From positions 1 through 43,720 of the IMG/VR virus record IMGVR_UViG_3300037189_014561: 43,720 nt of DNA, one strand, 5' to 3'. Source of the DNA: a virus. Positions 28,310-43,720 of this stretch are shown here, piece after piece; the stretch's first letter is position 1; the number at the start of each line of letters is the position of its first letter. The translations under genes and the position numbers were made by a program. Under the pieces are notes generated by a model that saw only the letters and a list, made by a program, of their open reading frames with translations, did no database searches and was not told the DNA's origin.

Positions 28310-29592
28310 ACGATCCACCTGTTGTCATATTTGAGAGGACGCATCGAGATTTGATCGCTGCGTGGAAGCATTAAGGCGAGAGTTCTGAAGGCGTCTGCAC
28401 CGTGGGAGGCCCAATCGTGTAGGGGACGGTCCGAGAAGACCTTCTTCTTCGCATCCCACTCCCTTCTATAATGCCTCAGGGCCTCAATCCCTAGTTGACA
28501 CCTCAGCGCATTGAAGTTGCACCGCGGAATTAGCAGCCTTGCCGCATTAATTCCCTCTTCCACCTTGGTCCTCGGCACCACAGTGGGGGTTATGCCTAGG
28601 TCGCGGAGGACCTCAGTACGACTTCGGGCAGTCGTTACTTCTCTCTGCTCGACGTCGTGGGGGAAGTAATGAGCCGCGTATATATAATTTCTGCGGAAAA
28701 TTTCCCCAGCATACCAGTCCAACCCCACGCCGGAGTTCTCTACGTAGTCAAAAATATGCACCGCGTCACCTATGAGCTGTGCAAACCAAACGGCGGTGGA
28801 GTCCCCTACACCCAAGTCCCAACCAGTGTAAACTCTCTTTCCCCGCTCATGAACTACTTGCCCCACACGGGAGTCTTTCTGGGCCTCTTCAATCAATTGC
28901 CCGAAGTAGGAACCAACGATGGGGGCCGCCCAGGAGCATTCGTATTCGGCTGCATAGGCCTCAGGGCTCATTTGCCTCCGGGCATCTTCGAGTTCACTGT
29001 GGGGCACAATCCCCGTTGCACTCGCTGGGTGGATGGCAACGTACCAGTCCTTTGCAAACTCAGGCTGAAGAGATCGTTCGTACATGTCGTAGAAATGGTT
29101 CCGGCCTCGCACCGTTCCAATAAAAATTGCATAGCCCAGTCGATCACTGAGCGCAGGGCGGACAACGTCGTTCCAGGCTCGAGGGTCCATATCTCCAAAC
29201 TCATCCAGAACCGCCCCATCGAAGTAGACACCTCGCATTCGATTGTAGTTATCGGCCCCGTAGAGTCTAATTCTACCCCCGTTGGGAAAGTCCACTCGAA
29301 GTTCCCCTTCGTGGTAGGAGATTCCTGGAATGTCCCGGGTGAACTCTTGGAGATAGTTCCACGCGACGTCCTTCGCTTGAGAATATGTTGGAGCGATGTA
29401 GGCAAATCGCGGGGAGGGCTTTTCACAGGTAAGGACTCCTTTTATGAGTTCATTAATACACGCGACTGTCTTCCCACACCTCCGGTGGGCAACCACGAGG
29501 GCCCACCTTTTTTCCCTTTGGTGGAGGGGGAAGAAGATTTCTCTTGGCCGGTAGTTGATCCGGACCTCTTGCGTCCCGTACTCCCTACTCAT
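28306..29592 (-). CDS. terL: Terminase large subunit, 428 aa
   Basis: DNA-packaging motor and nuclease. The ATPase carries Walker A AHRRCGKT (about 35-42) and Walker B VYFDGAVLDEFG (D130, E131), followed by motif III FIGTVRGRN. The C-terminal RNase H-like nuclease begins at YTGWDLGVGDSTAVW (D259). HYFPHDVEQREVTTARSRTEVLRDLG fits the middle nuclease strand. The gene overlaps the small subunit by 8 bp. A copy of the 23-bp GTATATAT motif lies inside the coding sequence at 28678. Confidence 0.95.
   Translation of the reverse strand: MSREYGTQEVRINYRPREIFFPLHQREKRWALVVAHRRCGKTVACINELIKGVLTCEKPSPRFAYIAPTYSQAKDVAWNYLQEFTRDIPGISYHEGELRVDFPNGGRIRLYGADNYNRMRGVYFDGAVLDEFGDMDPRAWNDVVRPALSDRLGYAIFIGTVRGRNHFYDMYERSLQPEFAKDWYVAIHPASATGIVPHSELEDARRQMSPEAYAAEYECSWAAPIVGSYFGQLIEEAQKDSRVGQVVHERGKRVYTGWDLGVGDSTAVWFAQLIGDAVHIFDYVENSGVGLDWYAGEIFRRNYIYAAHYFPHDVEQREVTTARSRTEVLRDLGITPTVVPRTKVEEGINAARLLIPRCNFNALRCQLGIEALRHYRREWDAKKKVFSDRPLHDWASHGADAFRTLALMLPRSDQISMRPLKYDNRWIV
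28678..28700 (+). promoter_or_regulatory. Motif copy 3: GTATATAT / TTTCT / GAAAA element inside terL
   Basis: GTATATAT, AA, TTTCT, GCG, GAAAA on the plus strand, within the minus-strand terminase gene. It is one of the least perfect of the six copies, probably limited by coding. Confidence 0.45.
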
Positions 29593-30028
29593 CCTTCAGT
29601 CCTTCAATTTTTGACGGGGTGAGGCTCTCCACTGGGGCCGTTCCGGCCCCTAGCATCCCGCGTTCCGCGGAGCCTCTGAATGATGCATCCGTCGTTCCGA
29701 CGGGGCTGTGTTCAATGATTCTTCCGGGTTCCTTGAAGCCAGCCGCTGCTGGGCCCTCCCACTTCACGATGAGTTTGGAGATGGGCTCTTCCCCTCCGGT
29801 GTTTTCCTGGACAGCCACTTTCCCGTCGATTCTGTTCGCGATCTCGTTGATCGCGATGTAGTCCCCATTCAGCGCGTCGTGGACGACAATTCTGGCTATG
29901 CGTTCGAGGGCGGTGCCTGTCGGCCCGTCAGCGCGTGCGAGTTCTAGCCTCAAGGCGTCACGCCATGCGCGACCTTGGTTGTTCGAAAGGGGGAGCTGGG
30001 CCTTCAGCCCGGGTTTCTTTTTTGCCAT
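29585..30028 (-). CDS. Terminase small subunit-like protein, 147 aa
   Basis: The ATG at 30028 (MAKKKPGLKAQLPLSNNQG) is preferred over an upstream in-frame ATG that would run into the palindrome array. The core GRAWRDALRLELARADGPTGTALERIARIVVHDALNGDYIAINEIANRIDGK is typical of phage proteins encoded before terL that recognise DNA ends. The C-terminal third is less ordered. It is the first gene of the late block. Confidence 0.82.
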   Translation of the reverse strand: MAKKKPGLKAQLPLSNNQGRAWRDALRLELARADGPTGTALERIARIVVHDALNGDYIAINEIANRIDGKVAVQENTGGEEPISKLIVKWEGPAAAGFKEPGRIIEHSPVGTTDASFRGSAERGMLGAGTAPVESLTPSKIEGLKDE

Positions 30029-30126
30029 GATTAGGGCATATATCAGGAATGGGCAAAAATCACCATGGGCCTGGATCCCGATTTTTGGTTTTTTTGTGGG
30101 CCAGTGACCCGTCGCACCTGAAGGAG

Positions 30127-30407
30127 GTGCGACAAATTGTCGCACCCCTGCGACAAAATGCCGCAGCGGTACCCGGGGGTCAAGCCTGCGACAAATTGAC
30201 CCACCCCCTTGACTGGCGGAAAATCATGCGACACTTTGTCGCATTGACAAAGCGGAAGGGCGCAAAATCATGCGACATATTGACGCAGGTTGAGGGTGCG
30301 ACATAATGTCGCATTGACTCAAAAAACGGCGCAAAGGGGTGCGGCAAAATGACGCAGGGGATTGACACCCATCTAACCCATTGAAATCATGCGGCATCAC
30401 GCCGCAC
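30127..30407. repeat. Array of eight 19-bp palindromes (operator or iteron candidates)
   Basis: Copies lie at 30127-30145, 30148-30166, 30186-30204, 30226-30244, 30270-30288, 30296-30314, 30339-30357 and 30389-30407. The first, GTGCGACAAATTGTCGCAC, is a perfect palindrome; the consensus is RTGCGRCAN-N-NTGYCGCAY. Centre spacings are 21, 38, 40, 44, 26, 43 and 50 bp. Copies 3-8 have TTGAC within or shortly after them. A half site GTCGCACC precedes the array near 30111. A dimeric DNA-binding protein is the natural reader. Confidence 0.92.
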
Positions 30408-30428
30408 CCCCTTGACACCATTTGGGGC

Positions 30429-30456
30429 TCGACCCGGCCGAAAAAATCGGTATGAT
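30429..30456 (+). promoter_or_regulatory. Weak sigma-70-like promoter for the early block
   Basis: TATGAT (30451-30456) is preceded 16 bp upstream by TCGACC (30429-30434), a poor -35. It lies just downstream of the palindrome array, so array-binding protein could control it. Confidence 0.4.
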
Positions 30457-30594: not shown

Positions 30595-30665
30595 CAACCG
30601 ATCATCGAGTCGCATGGATGGTGGTGGTACAATTCCCCAGTCCGTGCCCAAATCGAAAATAGTTG

Positions 30666-30719
30666 GGTGTTGCCCGACTCGCACACCAAGACCATGCGGT
30701 GTGTGGCTCGGGCAACACC
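30666..30719 (+). promoter_or_regulatory. Long leader hairpin upstream of first early gene
   Basis: GGTGTTGCCCGA (30666-30677) pairs with TCGGGCAACACC (30708-30719), a perfect 12-bp outer stem. An inner stem CACACC (30682-30687) / GGTGTG (30698-30703) closes a 10-base loop, with a small internal loop between the stems. It lies ~30 bp before the ATG at 30749. It may be a mRNA-stabilising structure, an attenuator or a protein-binding site. Confidence 0.75.
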
Positions 30720-30748
30720 AAACAACCCGCCCAAAGGAGACTACAATC

Positions 30749-31276
30749 ATGGCGAAGAAAACACAGGTTGAGTTCACGTCGCAGGGTTTCATCACGGAAA
30801 ATCACTGGGATGAGACATTGCTTGGACGCAACGAGTGGAAGTGGGACGACCACTTTGGAATCGAAGGCGACACGATCCGGGAAGACAAGATCCCGTTCGT
30901 GAAGTACCTGATCAGCCGCGGAATTAACGAGTCCGTGCAGAACAGTTACCAAGCGCACGCCAAAGGCACGGGCCTCGAGCCCCGCCGAGTAGCGTTCAAT
31001 CGTCGAGTCGCGGACCTCATGGCAGGCATCTGGGAACGTGCAAAGACGTCCCGCGCCGAGCCGGAAATCGACCTCGATGCGATGACACTCAAAGTCGTCG
31101 TAGCGAAGTCGCTGATGAAGGAATACGACATCAGCCCCGCAGAGTGCAAGGCATTGCTGAAGAGTGTCGAATTCGCGGCCCAGGAAGTTGCACGTCGCAA
31201 CGGACTGGATGCGAAGGAGATCCTCGCCACATGGAAGCAGCGCGCCGAAGACGATCTCAGCGGCCTCCCGATGTGA
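30749..31276 (+). CDS. First early-block protein, hypothetical, 175 aa
   Basis: ATG follows an AAAGGAG ribosome site. The protein is charged and helical (NRRVADLMAGIWERAKTSRAEPEIDLDAM, then KSLMKEYDISPAECKALLKSVEFAAQEVARRNGLD). The C-terminal half could be a small DNA-binding fold, but no clear helix-turn-helix is visible. As the first substantial gene downstream of the palindrome array it is a candidate array-binding regulator or host-takeover protein. Confidence 0.82.
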   Translation: MAKKTQVEFTSQGFITENHWDETLLGRNEWKWDDHFGIEGDTIREDKIPFVKYLISRGINESVQNSYQAHAKGTGLEPRRVAFNRRVADLMAGIWERAKTSRAEPEIDLDAMTLKVVVAKSLMKEYDISPAECKALLKSVEFAAQEVARRNGLDAKEILATWKQRAEDDLSGLPM

Positions 31277-36013: not shown

Positions 36014-36448
36014 ATGTTTAGGGAAGATGGAGCGAAGCTCCAAGTGAAGTTCTACGAGGTGGGGCTCATGCCCCACCTCTCCGAGCTACAACTCGCCCAG
36101 TACCACAAAGAGCCCCTGATGGCTTTCCGAGCCGAGATCTGGGGGCTTGGGCTTTGGTACTCAGGGCGAGAGTACCTCATTCTTGACGAGAAGGGATTTT
36201 TGACCAAGACCACCGATGGGGGCCTTGCCCTAAGGCTAATCTCTTTCGAGTCGGTGCACGGGCCAGGCGCGCTAAGGGCAGTACTGCGAAGGGAGATCCT
36301 CAACCCGCAGGGTGCAGTGCAAGTGCTGAAGACAAAATTCAACCCTTCCGCACCCGTTCCCTCCGCAAAGCCTGAACCCATCCCAAAACCCCTTCGAAGG
36401 AGGAAAATTGACCCAGCTGAGTTCTCCAAACTCTTGGAGGGGCTATGA
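36014..36448 (+). CDS. Hypothetical protein, 144 aa
   Basis: The N-terminal ~100 residues are mixed strands (FRAEIWGLGLWYSGREYLILDEKGFLTK), and the last 40 are basic and Pro-rich (KPEPIPKPLRRRKIDPAEFSKLLEGL). Overlaps the next gene by ATGA. Possibly binds DNA through the basic tail. Confidence 0.75.
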   Translation: MFREDGAKLQVKFYEVGLMPHLSELQLAQYHKEPLMAFRAEIWGLGLWYSGREYLILDEKGFLTKTTDGGLALRLISFESVHGPGALRAVLRREILNPQGAVQVLKTKFNPSAPVPSAKPEPIPKPLRRRKIDPAEFSKLLEGL

Positions 36449-36957
36449 GAGACTACTACCTGGCAGAGATAGGCAAGCTGCACAAGGAGGTCGAAGACCT
36501 CAAAACGAAGAACCACGACCAAGCAAGGCATATCAACAAACTCAAGGCAGAGGTCGAACGCCACAAGGCGCAGAATGCAACCATCAGAGCTGAGTTCGAA
36601 CTCCCGCAGATAGTGGAAGGTGTGGCAGAGATTATTAAGGCATTCCCCCAATTCCCCTTCATTCATAGGAAGAAACAGGAAGTACTGAAGATTCTCTGGG
36701 ACGCTGCGAAGGCAGACTCTGACTGGTGGGTCTCTCCGAGGCAAATCCACACCCTCCTCTATTCCAACCTCCCGGAAGAACAAAAGCCCGGACTCCGCGT
36801 CGTCCACACTTACATCTCCTACCTCCGCGGAGATCTCAAGTTCTCCTCCCTCGAAATCATCGGGAAGTACAACAAGGGGTGGAGGCTGGTCTTCCGGAAC
36901 TCAATCTTCACCCAGGAGTCAAGTATTCCAGACACAAAAATAATTTCCAATTCTTGA
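36445..36957 (+). CDS. Winged-helix regulator candidate with N-terminal coiled coil, 170 aa
   Basis: Residues 8-55 are a coiled coil (IGKLHKEVEDLKTKNHDQARHINKLKAEVERHKAQN). Residues ~90-155 (WWVSPRQIHTLLYSNLPEE...LRVVHTYISYLRGDLKFSSLEIIGKYNKGWRLVF) match the OmpR/PhoB-type winged-helix DNA-binding domain, including the recognition helix VHTYISYLRGDL and the wing GKYNKGWRL. It lacks a receiver domain. A plausible reader of one of the repeated DNA motifs. Confidence 0.78.
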   Translation: MRDYYLAEIGKLHKEVEDLKTKNHDQARHINKLKAEVERHKAQNATIRAEFELPQIVEGVAEIIKAFPQFPFIHRKKQEVLKILWDAAKADSDWWVSPRQIHTLLYSNLPEEQKPGLRVVHTYISYLRGDLKFSSLEIIGKYNKGWRLVFRNSIFTQESSIPDTKIISNS

Positions 36958-42407: not shown

Positions 42408-43720
42408 ATGTCCTCCTTCTTTCTCCCGATTTCTGACATCAAGGTCAACGATGACGACAGACAAAGAAAAGACCTCACTGGGATCGAAGATCTCATGGCC
42501 TCCATTACCCGAATTGGTCAGCTCAACCCGATCATCCTCGATCAGGACAATAATCTCATTGCTGGAAGGAGAAGGCTTGAGGCTCTCCGACGTTTGGGTA
42601 GAACGCAAGCGAAAGTCTCCATTCTTGGAGATCTCGACGCTGGGGCTCGACAGCTCGTCGAATTGGACGAAAATCTCCGCCGAGTTGATCTGCCGTGGCA
42701 GGAAACGGCTGGTGCAATCTATCAAATTCACCTCCTCAAACAAGCTGATAGTCCCACCTGGGGCCAAGTTGATACTGTGGAATATACAGGGCTTTCCGCT
42801 ACAGTCATATCAAACGCCATTGCTGTCGGTGCGGCGCTTTCAAAAGGGGACGAGAAGGTTCGAGCCTGTGGTACTCTCGGTTCCGCTGCAGATTTGCTTA
42901 GAAGGCGACGTGCCCTCGCTCTCGACGCCGCACTGAGTGAAGACCTTTTTGCAGAAGAAGAAGAACATGAGTACACAACCGACTTCGGAGGCGAACCCAC
43001 CCCTCCTCCACCCGCACCCAGCGGTGAACAGGGTGGTATATATGATTTCCCGCGAAAAGAGTCGCCAGCACCCCTCGCTGGAGACCATCCACCGCCTCCG
43101 CCAACTCTGCCTCCTCATCGAGCACCTTCTCCTTTTCGCATCATCCAAGGAGACTTTTTACAGAGCCTCCGGTCCGGGTTTTTTGGAAAGGCAAAGTTCA
43201 ACCTCCTCCACTGCGACTTCCCCTACGGGATCAATTTCGACCGCTCTGCTCAGGGAGGCAGCGAGAGCAATGATGCTCAGTACTCTGATAGCCCAGAAAC
43301 TTTCTGGGCTCTCACGGACGGACTCTTAGCCCACCAAGATGAGTTCATTGCTGACTCCGCCCACATGATTTTCTGGTACAGCATGAATTACCACTCTGCT
43401 CTCATTGAAAGGCTCGAAAAGCATGGCTGGTTCGTCGTCCCCACCCCTCTTATCTGGTACAAATCCGATGGTGCAGGAATTGCGAGTGACTATCGAAGAC
43501 GCCCAAAGCACATTTACGAGACGGCTCTCTTTTGTTCTCGAGGAGATCGACAAATTCTCCAGCTTAGAAATGACGTATTCGCTGAAGGCTTGGCGCGACA
43601 CACAGAGGGACACCTTTCTGCCAAACCTCAAGCAATGCTTGAGTACTTTCTTTCCATGGTTGTCACCGAGTATACCAATCTCCTCGATCCTACCTGTGGT
43701 AGCGGTACTGCTATTCGAGC
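42408..43720 (+). CDS. ParB-DNA methyltransferase fusion, N-terminal and middle part (continues at base 2)
   Basis: The gene begins here and ends at 208 after the circle closes (477 residues). Residues ~5-110 are a ParB/Srx-like domain (PISDIKVNDDDRQ; QLNPIILDQDNNLIAGRRRLEAL, with GRRR in place of the GERR box). A Glu-rich and Pro-rich linker (residues ~181-245) follows and carries a copy of the 23-bp DNA motif at 43036. The methyltransferase domain opens with FRIIQGDF and has catalytic DFPY (270-273). The AdoMet motif lies at the wrap. Order DFPY before CGSG is the beta class, giving N6-adenine or N4-cytosine. Such ParB-MTase fusions are common phage orphan methyltransferases; they can protect against restriction. 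Confidence 0.92.
   Translation, partial: MSSFFLPISDIKVNDDDRQRKDLTGIEDLMASITRIGQLNPIILDQDNNLIAGRRRLEALRRLGRTQAKVSILGDLDAGARQLVELDENLRRVDLPWQETAGAIYQIHLLKQADSPTWGQVDTVEYTGLSATVISNAIAVGAALSKGDEKVRACGTLGSAADLLRRRRALALDAALSEDLFAEEEEHEYTTDFGGEPTPPPPAPSGEQGGIYDFPRKESPAPLAGDHPPPPPTLPPHRAPSPFRIIQGDFLQSLRSGFFGKAKFNLLHCDFPYGINFDRSAQGGSESNDAQYSDSPETFWALTDGLLAHQDEFIADSAHMIFWYSMNYHSALIERLEKHGWFVVPTPLIWYKSDGAGIASDYRRRPKHIYETALFCSRGDRQILQLRNDVFAEGLARHTEGHLSAKPQAMLEYFLSMVVTEYTNLLDPTCGSGTAIR
43036..43058 (+). promoter_or_regulatory. Motif copy 6: GTATATAT / TTTCC / GAAAA element inside the ParB-MTase linker
   Basis: GTATATAT, GA, TTTCC, CGC, GAAAA on the plus strand. It falls in codons of the disordered linker between the two domains (around residues 210-217), where sequence constraint would be low, so its presence is notable. 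Confidence 0.5.
43634..43720. repeat. Right copy of 87-bp terminal direct repeat
   Basis: Exact copy of bases 1-87. It lies inside the methyltransferase reading frame, so both copies code for the same residues (starting MLEYFLSMVV). Confidence 0.97.

Follow-up and report, generated by a model that had tools for sequence, protein, structure and literature searches.

RegA, PrrA, RegR and ActR belong to one family of global redox response regulators, which carry a Fis-type helix-turn-helix and have the sensor kinase RegB as their partner. Consensus binding sequences have been published for RegR (GNGRCRTTNNGNCGC), PrrA (YSCGGC-N5-GWCRMA) and RegA (SSGNVRDNHYSNCSS) (PMC5506826), sites of the family are degenerate and differ between species (PMC5506826, PMC4263372), and dimerisation of RegA is promoted by copper (PMC9147068). 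Among phages, clusters of sites for the host regulator CtrA have been described in phages of Alphaproteobacteria (vB_BsubS-Delta and others; PMC9437464) and Pho boxes, read by the host response regulator PhoB, in promoters of the cyanophages S-PM2d and P-SSM2 (PMC10976474); our literature searches, with subscription journals outside their coverage, recovered these CtrA and PhoB cases and no case of phage use of RegA or PrrA. As a locus to set beside these systems, we consider here an array of eight palindromes in the virus record IMGVR_UViG_3300037189_014561 of IMG/VR, analysed over its full 43,720 nucleotides (hereafter the window). From its sequence, the array probably consists of boxes for the RegA/PrrA/RegR/ActR protein of the host that couple phage transcription to the host redox state, because the array is conserved, it matches the family consensus, the same palindrome is linked to regA and regB in bacteria, and RegA is absent from the palindrome-bearing phages tested.

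The eight-site array

Eight palindromes of 7-3-7 form, TGCGRCA-N3-TGNCGCA, lie at 30127-30407 (281 bp), between the late (terS-side) and the early gene blocks, and none is found elsewhere in the window. The 19-mers start at 30127, 30148, 30186, 30226, 30270, 30296, 30339 and 30389, with start-to-start distances of 21, 38, 40, 44, 26, 43 and 50 bp; TTGAC stands directly after two of the sites, and after CCCCC at two others. The central 17 bp of each site are as follows.

30128..30144: site 1, TGCGACAAATTGTCGCA, a perfect palindrome including its flanks
30149..30165: site 2, TGCGACAAAATGCCGCA, which on the minus strand fits both the PrrA and the RegR consensus exactly
30187..30203: site 3, TGCGACAAATTGACCCA, followed by CCCCCTTGAC; TGACCCACCCCC is kept in both close relatives
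30227..30243: site 4, TGCGACACTTTGTCGCA, with TTGACA directly after it
30271..30287: site 5, TGCGACATATTGACGCA
30297..30313: site 6, TGCGACATAATGTCGCA, with TTGACT directly after it; an exact match to the RegR consensus on the minus strand
30340..30356: site 7, TGCGGCAAAATGACGCA, an exact match to the PrrA consensus YSCGGC-N5-GWCRMA
30390..30406: site 8, TGCGGCATCACGCCGCA, centred about -65 relative to the predicted early start, and at -64/-65 in both relatives

With up to three mismatches allowed, the palindrome pattern has 10 matches in the window, 8 of them in the array, where shuffling predicts 1.4; none of the shuffles gave 10. Matches to 12 or more of the 14 specified bases occur at 8 positions (0.15 expected) and matches to all 14 at 3 (0.00 expected). 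A de novo search for palindrome arrays, blind to the motif, also recovered the array in the window and in both relatives, and recovered it in none of 20 Markov-shuffled controls. An eight-copy array of a 19-bp palindrome, irregularly spaced at 21-50 bp, had been described in an earlier note made from the sequence of this record; the pattern counts, the shuffling and the de novo search confirm the array, and the measured starts bear out the spacing. Of the limits that it gave, 30111-30407, the end holds and the start does not, as the sites begin at 30127 and the segment from 30111 takes in a small hairpin. All eight sites are indeed present but they are not equal: site 3 (TGACCCA) shows the strongest degradation of one arm, and about half of the 21 sites of three phages have a mismatch at the core pair 4/12.

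These three phages are the window and two close relatives recovered by a terminase search, IMGVR 3300033571_025403 (terL 90% identical) and 3300032315_001584 (89%). Both relatives hold six to seven like sites, only in the corresponding gap, and sites 2, 3, 4, 6 and 8 are kept in the alignment of the three sequences. The palindromes thus passed the conservation test that had been proposed for them, which supports the suggestion that they are candidate sites for a dimeric protein in the early/late control region. Relatives whose terL is about 55% identical have no such sites, and when equivalent palindrome arrays were sought in terL or early-module relatives without the motif, we obtained none, or low-complexity G+C-rich matches only.

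Clustered repeats in a large intergenic gap could also be the iterons of a replication origin, as the earlier note had allowed. The copies are however spaced by 2.0-4.8 helical turns with a phase coherence of 0.19, that is irregularly and without helical phase, no AT-rich element adjoins the array (AT is 32-57% across the gap), and a single copy of the site stands at promoters in bacteria and in other phages. The GC-skew minimum that had been proposed as a check falls near 6.2 kb instead of at the array. We consider an iteron origin very improbable.

Match to the RegA family box and linkage to regA and regB

The core of the array, GCGRC-N5-GNCGC, matches the published box of the RegA/PrrA/RegR family and occurs 12 times in the window, in the array only, against 0.67 expected. 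The RegR consensus is exact at two sites and is found with at most one mismatch at seven of the eight (12 window matches against 2.6 expected); the PrrA consensus is likewise exact at two sites and within one mismatch at seven of the eight (16 against 5.5); a loose RegA pattern is present at seven of the eight sites and is not significant alone across the window. Among the 21 sites of the three phages, the core positions G1, C2, G3, C5, G11, C13 and C15 are invariant and positions 4 and 12 vary, these being the degenerate positions of the RegR consensus. A literature search with the letters of the palindrome returned nothing relevant.

The same positions bear on the idea that the repeats work at the RNA level, as hairpins within the leader of a transcript. 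Each core could fold as a 7-bp stem with a 3-nt loop, but mismatches of the pair 4/12 beside invariant neighbours are the pattern of a protein site, and the bacterial copies lie upstream of the -35 element, so that hairpins in a leader appear to be a most implausible explanation.

The linkage was studied in 369 genomes from the class of a Nitrosomonas, partly incomplete, in which RegA was called at one similarity cut-off; the RegA query has a receiver and a Fis-type HTH_8 domain and matches the PrrA DNA-binding domain 1umq. A RegA orthologue is present in 39 of the 44 genomes that carry the exact palindrome, against 81 of the 325 without it (odds ratio 23, Fisher p=2e-16, without correction for shared ancestry), and the pattern written backwards, used as a control, has no association with RegA (p=0.22). 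In eleven genomes, nine of the 369 and two others, the palindrome precedes regA by 1.3-1.5 kb and a gene encoding a regB-like kinase (412-471 aa) by 29-146 bp, and ten of these eleven kinases have an H-box of the HELGTPL/HELNTPI type. A box ahead of the operon of the regulator itself is a classical sign of autoregulation, and because the box precedes that operon the palindrome is tied to RegA without recourse to consensus similarity.

This linkage also bears on the proposal of a centromere-like partition site for a ParB-domain protein of the phage. The sites form a palindromic cluster, and the earlier note had reported a ParB fusion in the phage; the sites nevertheless track host regA and not a partition gene, and a single copy serves bacterial promoters. 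No evidence for a centromere emerged, the ParB fusion itself not being among the proteins tested. The proposal thus has, in our opinion, hardly any chance of being correct.

No RegA-like protein is encoded in the nine palindrome-bearing phages tested, the window included. Each of the 12 bacterial genomes in which the palindrome was first found does have RegA, at 48-57% identity. The assembly of a SAR11-type single-cell genome holds a palindrome stretch nearly identical to two viral contigs, together with a RegA homologue at 38% identity; RegB/RegA of SAR11 are mentioned in PMC7318151. We infer that RegA of the window phage's own host binds the eight sites.

Several observations weigh against the reading of the array as host RegA boxes. 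Since sites of the family are degenerate and vary between species, a consensus match alone is weak, and it is the linkage to regB, not the consensus match, that carries the argument for RegA. In the linkage set, 5 palindrome-positive genomes have no RegA match at the cut-off, and two thirds of the RegA-positive genomes have no exact palindrome. Most TTGAC tracts at viral sites, and those at the inner sites of the window, have no convincing -10 at the expected distance.

The palindrome in other phages and in bacteria

At least 120 viral contigs, of many different habitats, contain the sequence TGCGACA-N3-TGTCGCA-TTGAC, a lower bound in which phages are counted without regard to relatedness; the backwards pattern occurs in none. 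Most of the palindrome-bearing phages have no protein in common with the window, and several near-complete ones have two to five sites, often clustered. G030, a distant relative in the early module, has four, two of them in a 21-bp tandem as sites 1 and 2 of the window. A 30-nt probe had no full match in cultured phages. In four viral contigs and others similar to them, the palindrome is followed by a second recurring element, TTGACACAAGAT(A/G)TAGT, often located beside GGTGGGCCCCGCCCAC or CCCCGAAGGGG hairpins.

These distributions bear on the view that the array is the operator of a regulator encoded by the phage and switching early to late transcription, the candidates being the RHH protein (37633), the coiled-coil winged-helix protein (36445) and the 175-aa first early protein. 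Both array-bearing relatives encode all three, and the 36445 protein has an OmpR/PhoB-like winged helix (best Foldseek matches SaeR, ToxR and CadC) behind a predicted long helix. The winged-helix protein is however only about 31-34% conserved in the two relatives, bacteria use the identical palindrome beside regB, and no homologue of the RHH, winged-helix, 175-residue or 161-aa (37036) proteins was found in the other palindrome-bearing phages examined, G030 included; therefore a common binder must come from the hosts, or be a phage protein unseen by our searches. A cognate regulator of phage origin, as the earlier note had envisaged, is thus unlikely. The protein encoded at 36445-36957, with its predicted long N-terminal helix and OmpR/PhoB-type winged helix, is a possible phage transcription factor.

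In bacteria, the 19-base pattern occurs in 45 contigs, including Pandoraea, Nitrosomonas and Porticoccus. Exact 17-bp palindromes number five or six in Nitrosomonas-type genomes, where the backwards control gives none. In 15 of 27 distinct sites the bacterial palindrome abuts a -35 element that has a -10 at 17-bp spacing. That TTGAC serves as a -35 everywhere was considered and rejected: this holds for many bacterial and some viral sites, and most viral sites are without a convincing -10. The genes beside the bacterial sites, named by eye from their sequence, encode TonB receptors, PepSY proteins, SCO1, PCuAC and nosZ, and SCO1, PCuAC and nosZ as neighbours fit redox or respiratory control; beside the site of one Nitrosomonas genome lies the gene for a RegB-type sensor kinase, whose kinase domains were confirmed. 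The copper-like neighbours had first suggested a copper-specific regulator of Nitrosomonas-type regulons, which was dropped as the core is the RegA consensus and the palindrome maps to regB.

Two further groups of loci were observed. Four gammaproteobacterial loci have clusters of RegA boxes ahead of secreted AHTR..GHSC-type proteins, TlpA-like thioredoxins, TonB receptors and a CobN-like protein, apparently a copper or redox-linked regulon. Upstream of a 61-aa membrane open reading frame (ORF), one Pandoraea locus and about 20 others of this genus have a conserved tandem of two RegA-type palindromes and, after it, TTGACA with no clear -10.

Flanking features, proposed mechanism and known systems

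An 87-base repeat is present at both ends of the record (1-87 and 43634-43720), for which reason we read the record as a complete circular genome. The late block runs leftward from about 30.0 kb and includes the large terminase plus portal, capsid and other structural genes by position and sequence; the early block runs rightward from 30.75 kb, across the record end, to about 5.5 kb, and contains a PD-(D/E)XK nuclease, a RecA-like AAA protein, a family A DNA polymerase and a DUF3987 protein. The features that flank the array are the following.

29585..30028, minus strand: gene in the small-terminase position, which opens the late block, likely ATG start at 30028
30111..30135: hairpin GTCGCACC..GGTGCGAC, which overlaps site 1 on the late-gene side
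30412..30418, plus strand: TTGACAC, kept in all three phages between site 8 and the early promoter
30429..30456, plus strand: predicted early sigma-70 promoter, TCGACC-N16-TATGAT
30749..31276, plus strand: conserved gene for a 175-aa protein of unassigned function, the first long one in the early block

The two relatives have promoters at the matching place, TTGATC-N16-TATAAT and TTGAAC-N16-TAAGAT. In the three phages the -10 of the early promoter, with its 16-bp spacer, lies 60-61 bp past the start of site 8, and the centre of site 8 is consequently at -64/-65 in all of them.

Rfam and tRNA scans of the window gave no matches, and the structure predicted for the 175-aa protein was of low confidence (pLDDT 64) with no meaningful structural match. 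Both arms of the 30111-30135 hairpin are changed together in the relative L006 (ATCGCGCGC / GCGCGCGAT). The predicted early leader contains a further, very stable hairpin at 30662-30723 (-47 kcal/mol for 30655-30760, z -5.7), just 5' of the ribosome site that serves the first long gene of the early block. Its arms, GTTGGGTGTTGCCCGA / TCGGGCAACACC, are kept in both relatives; L007 has an insertion of about 280 bp between them, which includes a small ORF. The 87-bp terminal repeat lies inside an apparent DNA methyltransferase reading frame (LLDPTCGSGTAIRAG), which is probably the ParB fusion mentioned above.

If the sites are host RegA boxes, as we favour, RegA dimers of the host would load, after phage entry, onto the array between the divergent blocks, and the phosphorylation state of RegA, or its copper-promoted dimerisation, would report respiration and redox to the phage. 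Site 8, at its fixed -64/-65 position, is placed as a class I activator site would be and might activate the early promoter in this way. Sites 1-2 stand beside the late-side leader; the sites other than site 8 would permit graded, concentration-dependent control and may govern the late side as well. Eight sites would give a steep or a graded response, and phage transcription would be tied to the respiratory or redox, possibly also copper, state of the host. The effect could be activation or repression, or could postpone the lytic programme. More tentatively, and with slightly less than even confidence, a large and taxonomically scattered set of uncultured phages may have independently recruited RegB/RegA to sense the environment; early/late timing, or a pausing of lysis, would then follow host respiration and copper or oxygen status, a redox counterpart of the 'lytic deferment' of CtrA phages.

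If the RegA reading is true, infection by many environmental phages would depend on the host redox state through a regulator of many Proteobacteria, a SAR11-type single-cell genome among them. From the near-perfect phage copies one would also obtain the RegA site in a sharp 17-bp form, while its published consensus sequences disagree between species.

The array may be compared with those of the CtrA phages, which have dense sites for a host regulator that serves as sensor; here eight sites lie within 281 bp of one gap and the site occurs in unrelated phages. CtrA phages sense the cell cycle and their binding and control have been experimentally shown, whereas the window array would respond to the redox regulator RegA, as predicted from its sequence. 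The cyanophage Pho boxes also depend on a host response regulator, but they stand in individual promoters and concern phosphate, in contrast to an array within one divergent switch that would concern redox. With the RegA/PrrA/RegR boxes of Rhodobacter and Bradyrhizobium (PMC5506826; ChIP sites in PMC5359404) the array has the GCGRC-N5-GNCGC inverted repeat in common; those boxes are chromosomal and degenerate, whereas the phage copies are near-perfect and eightfold.
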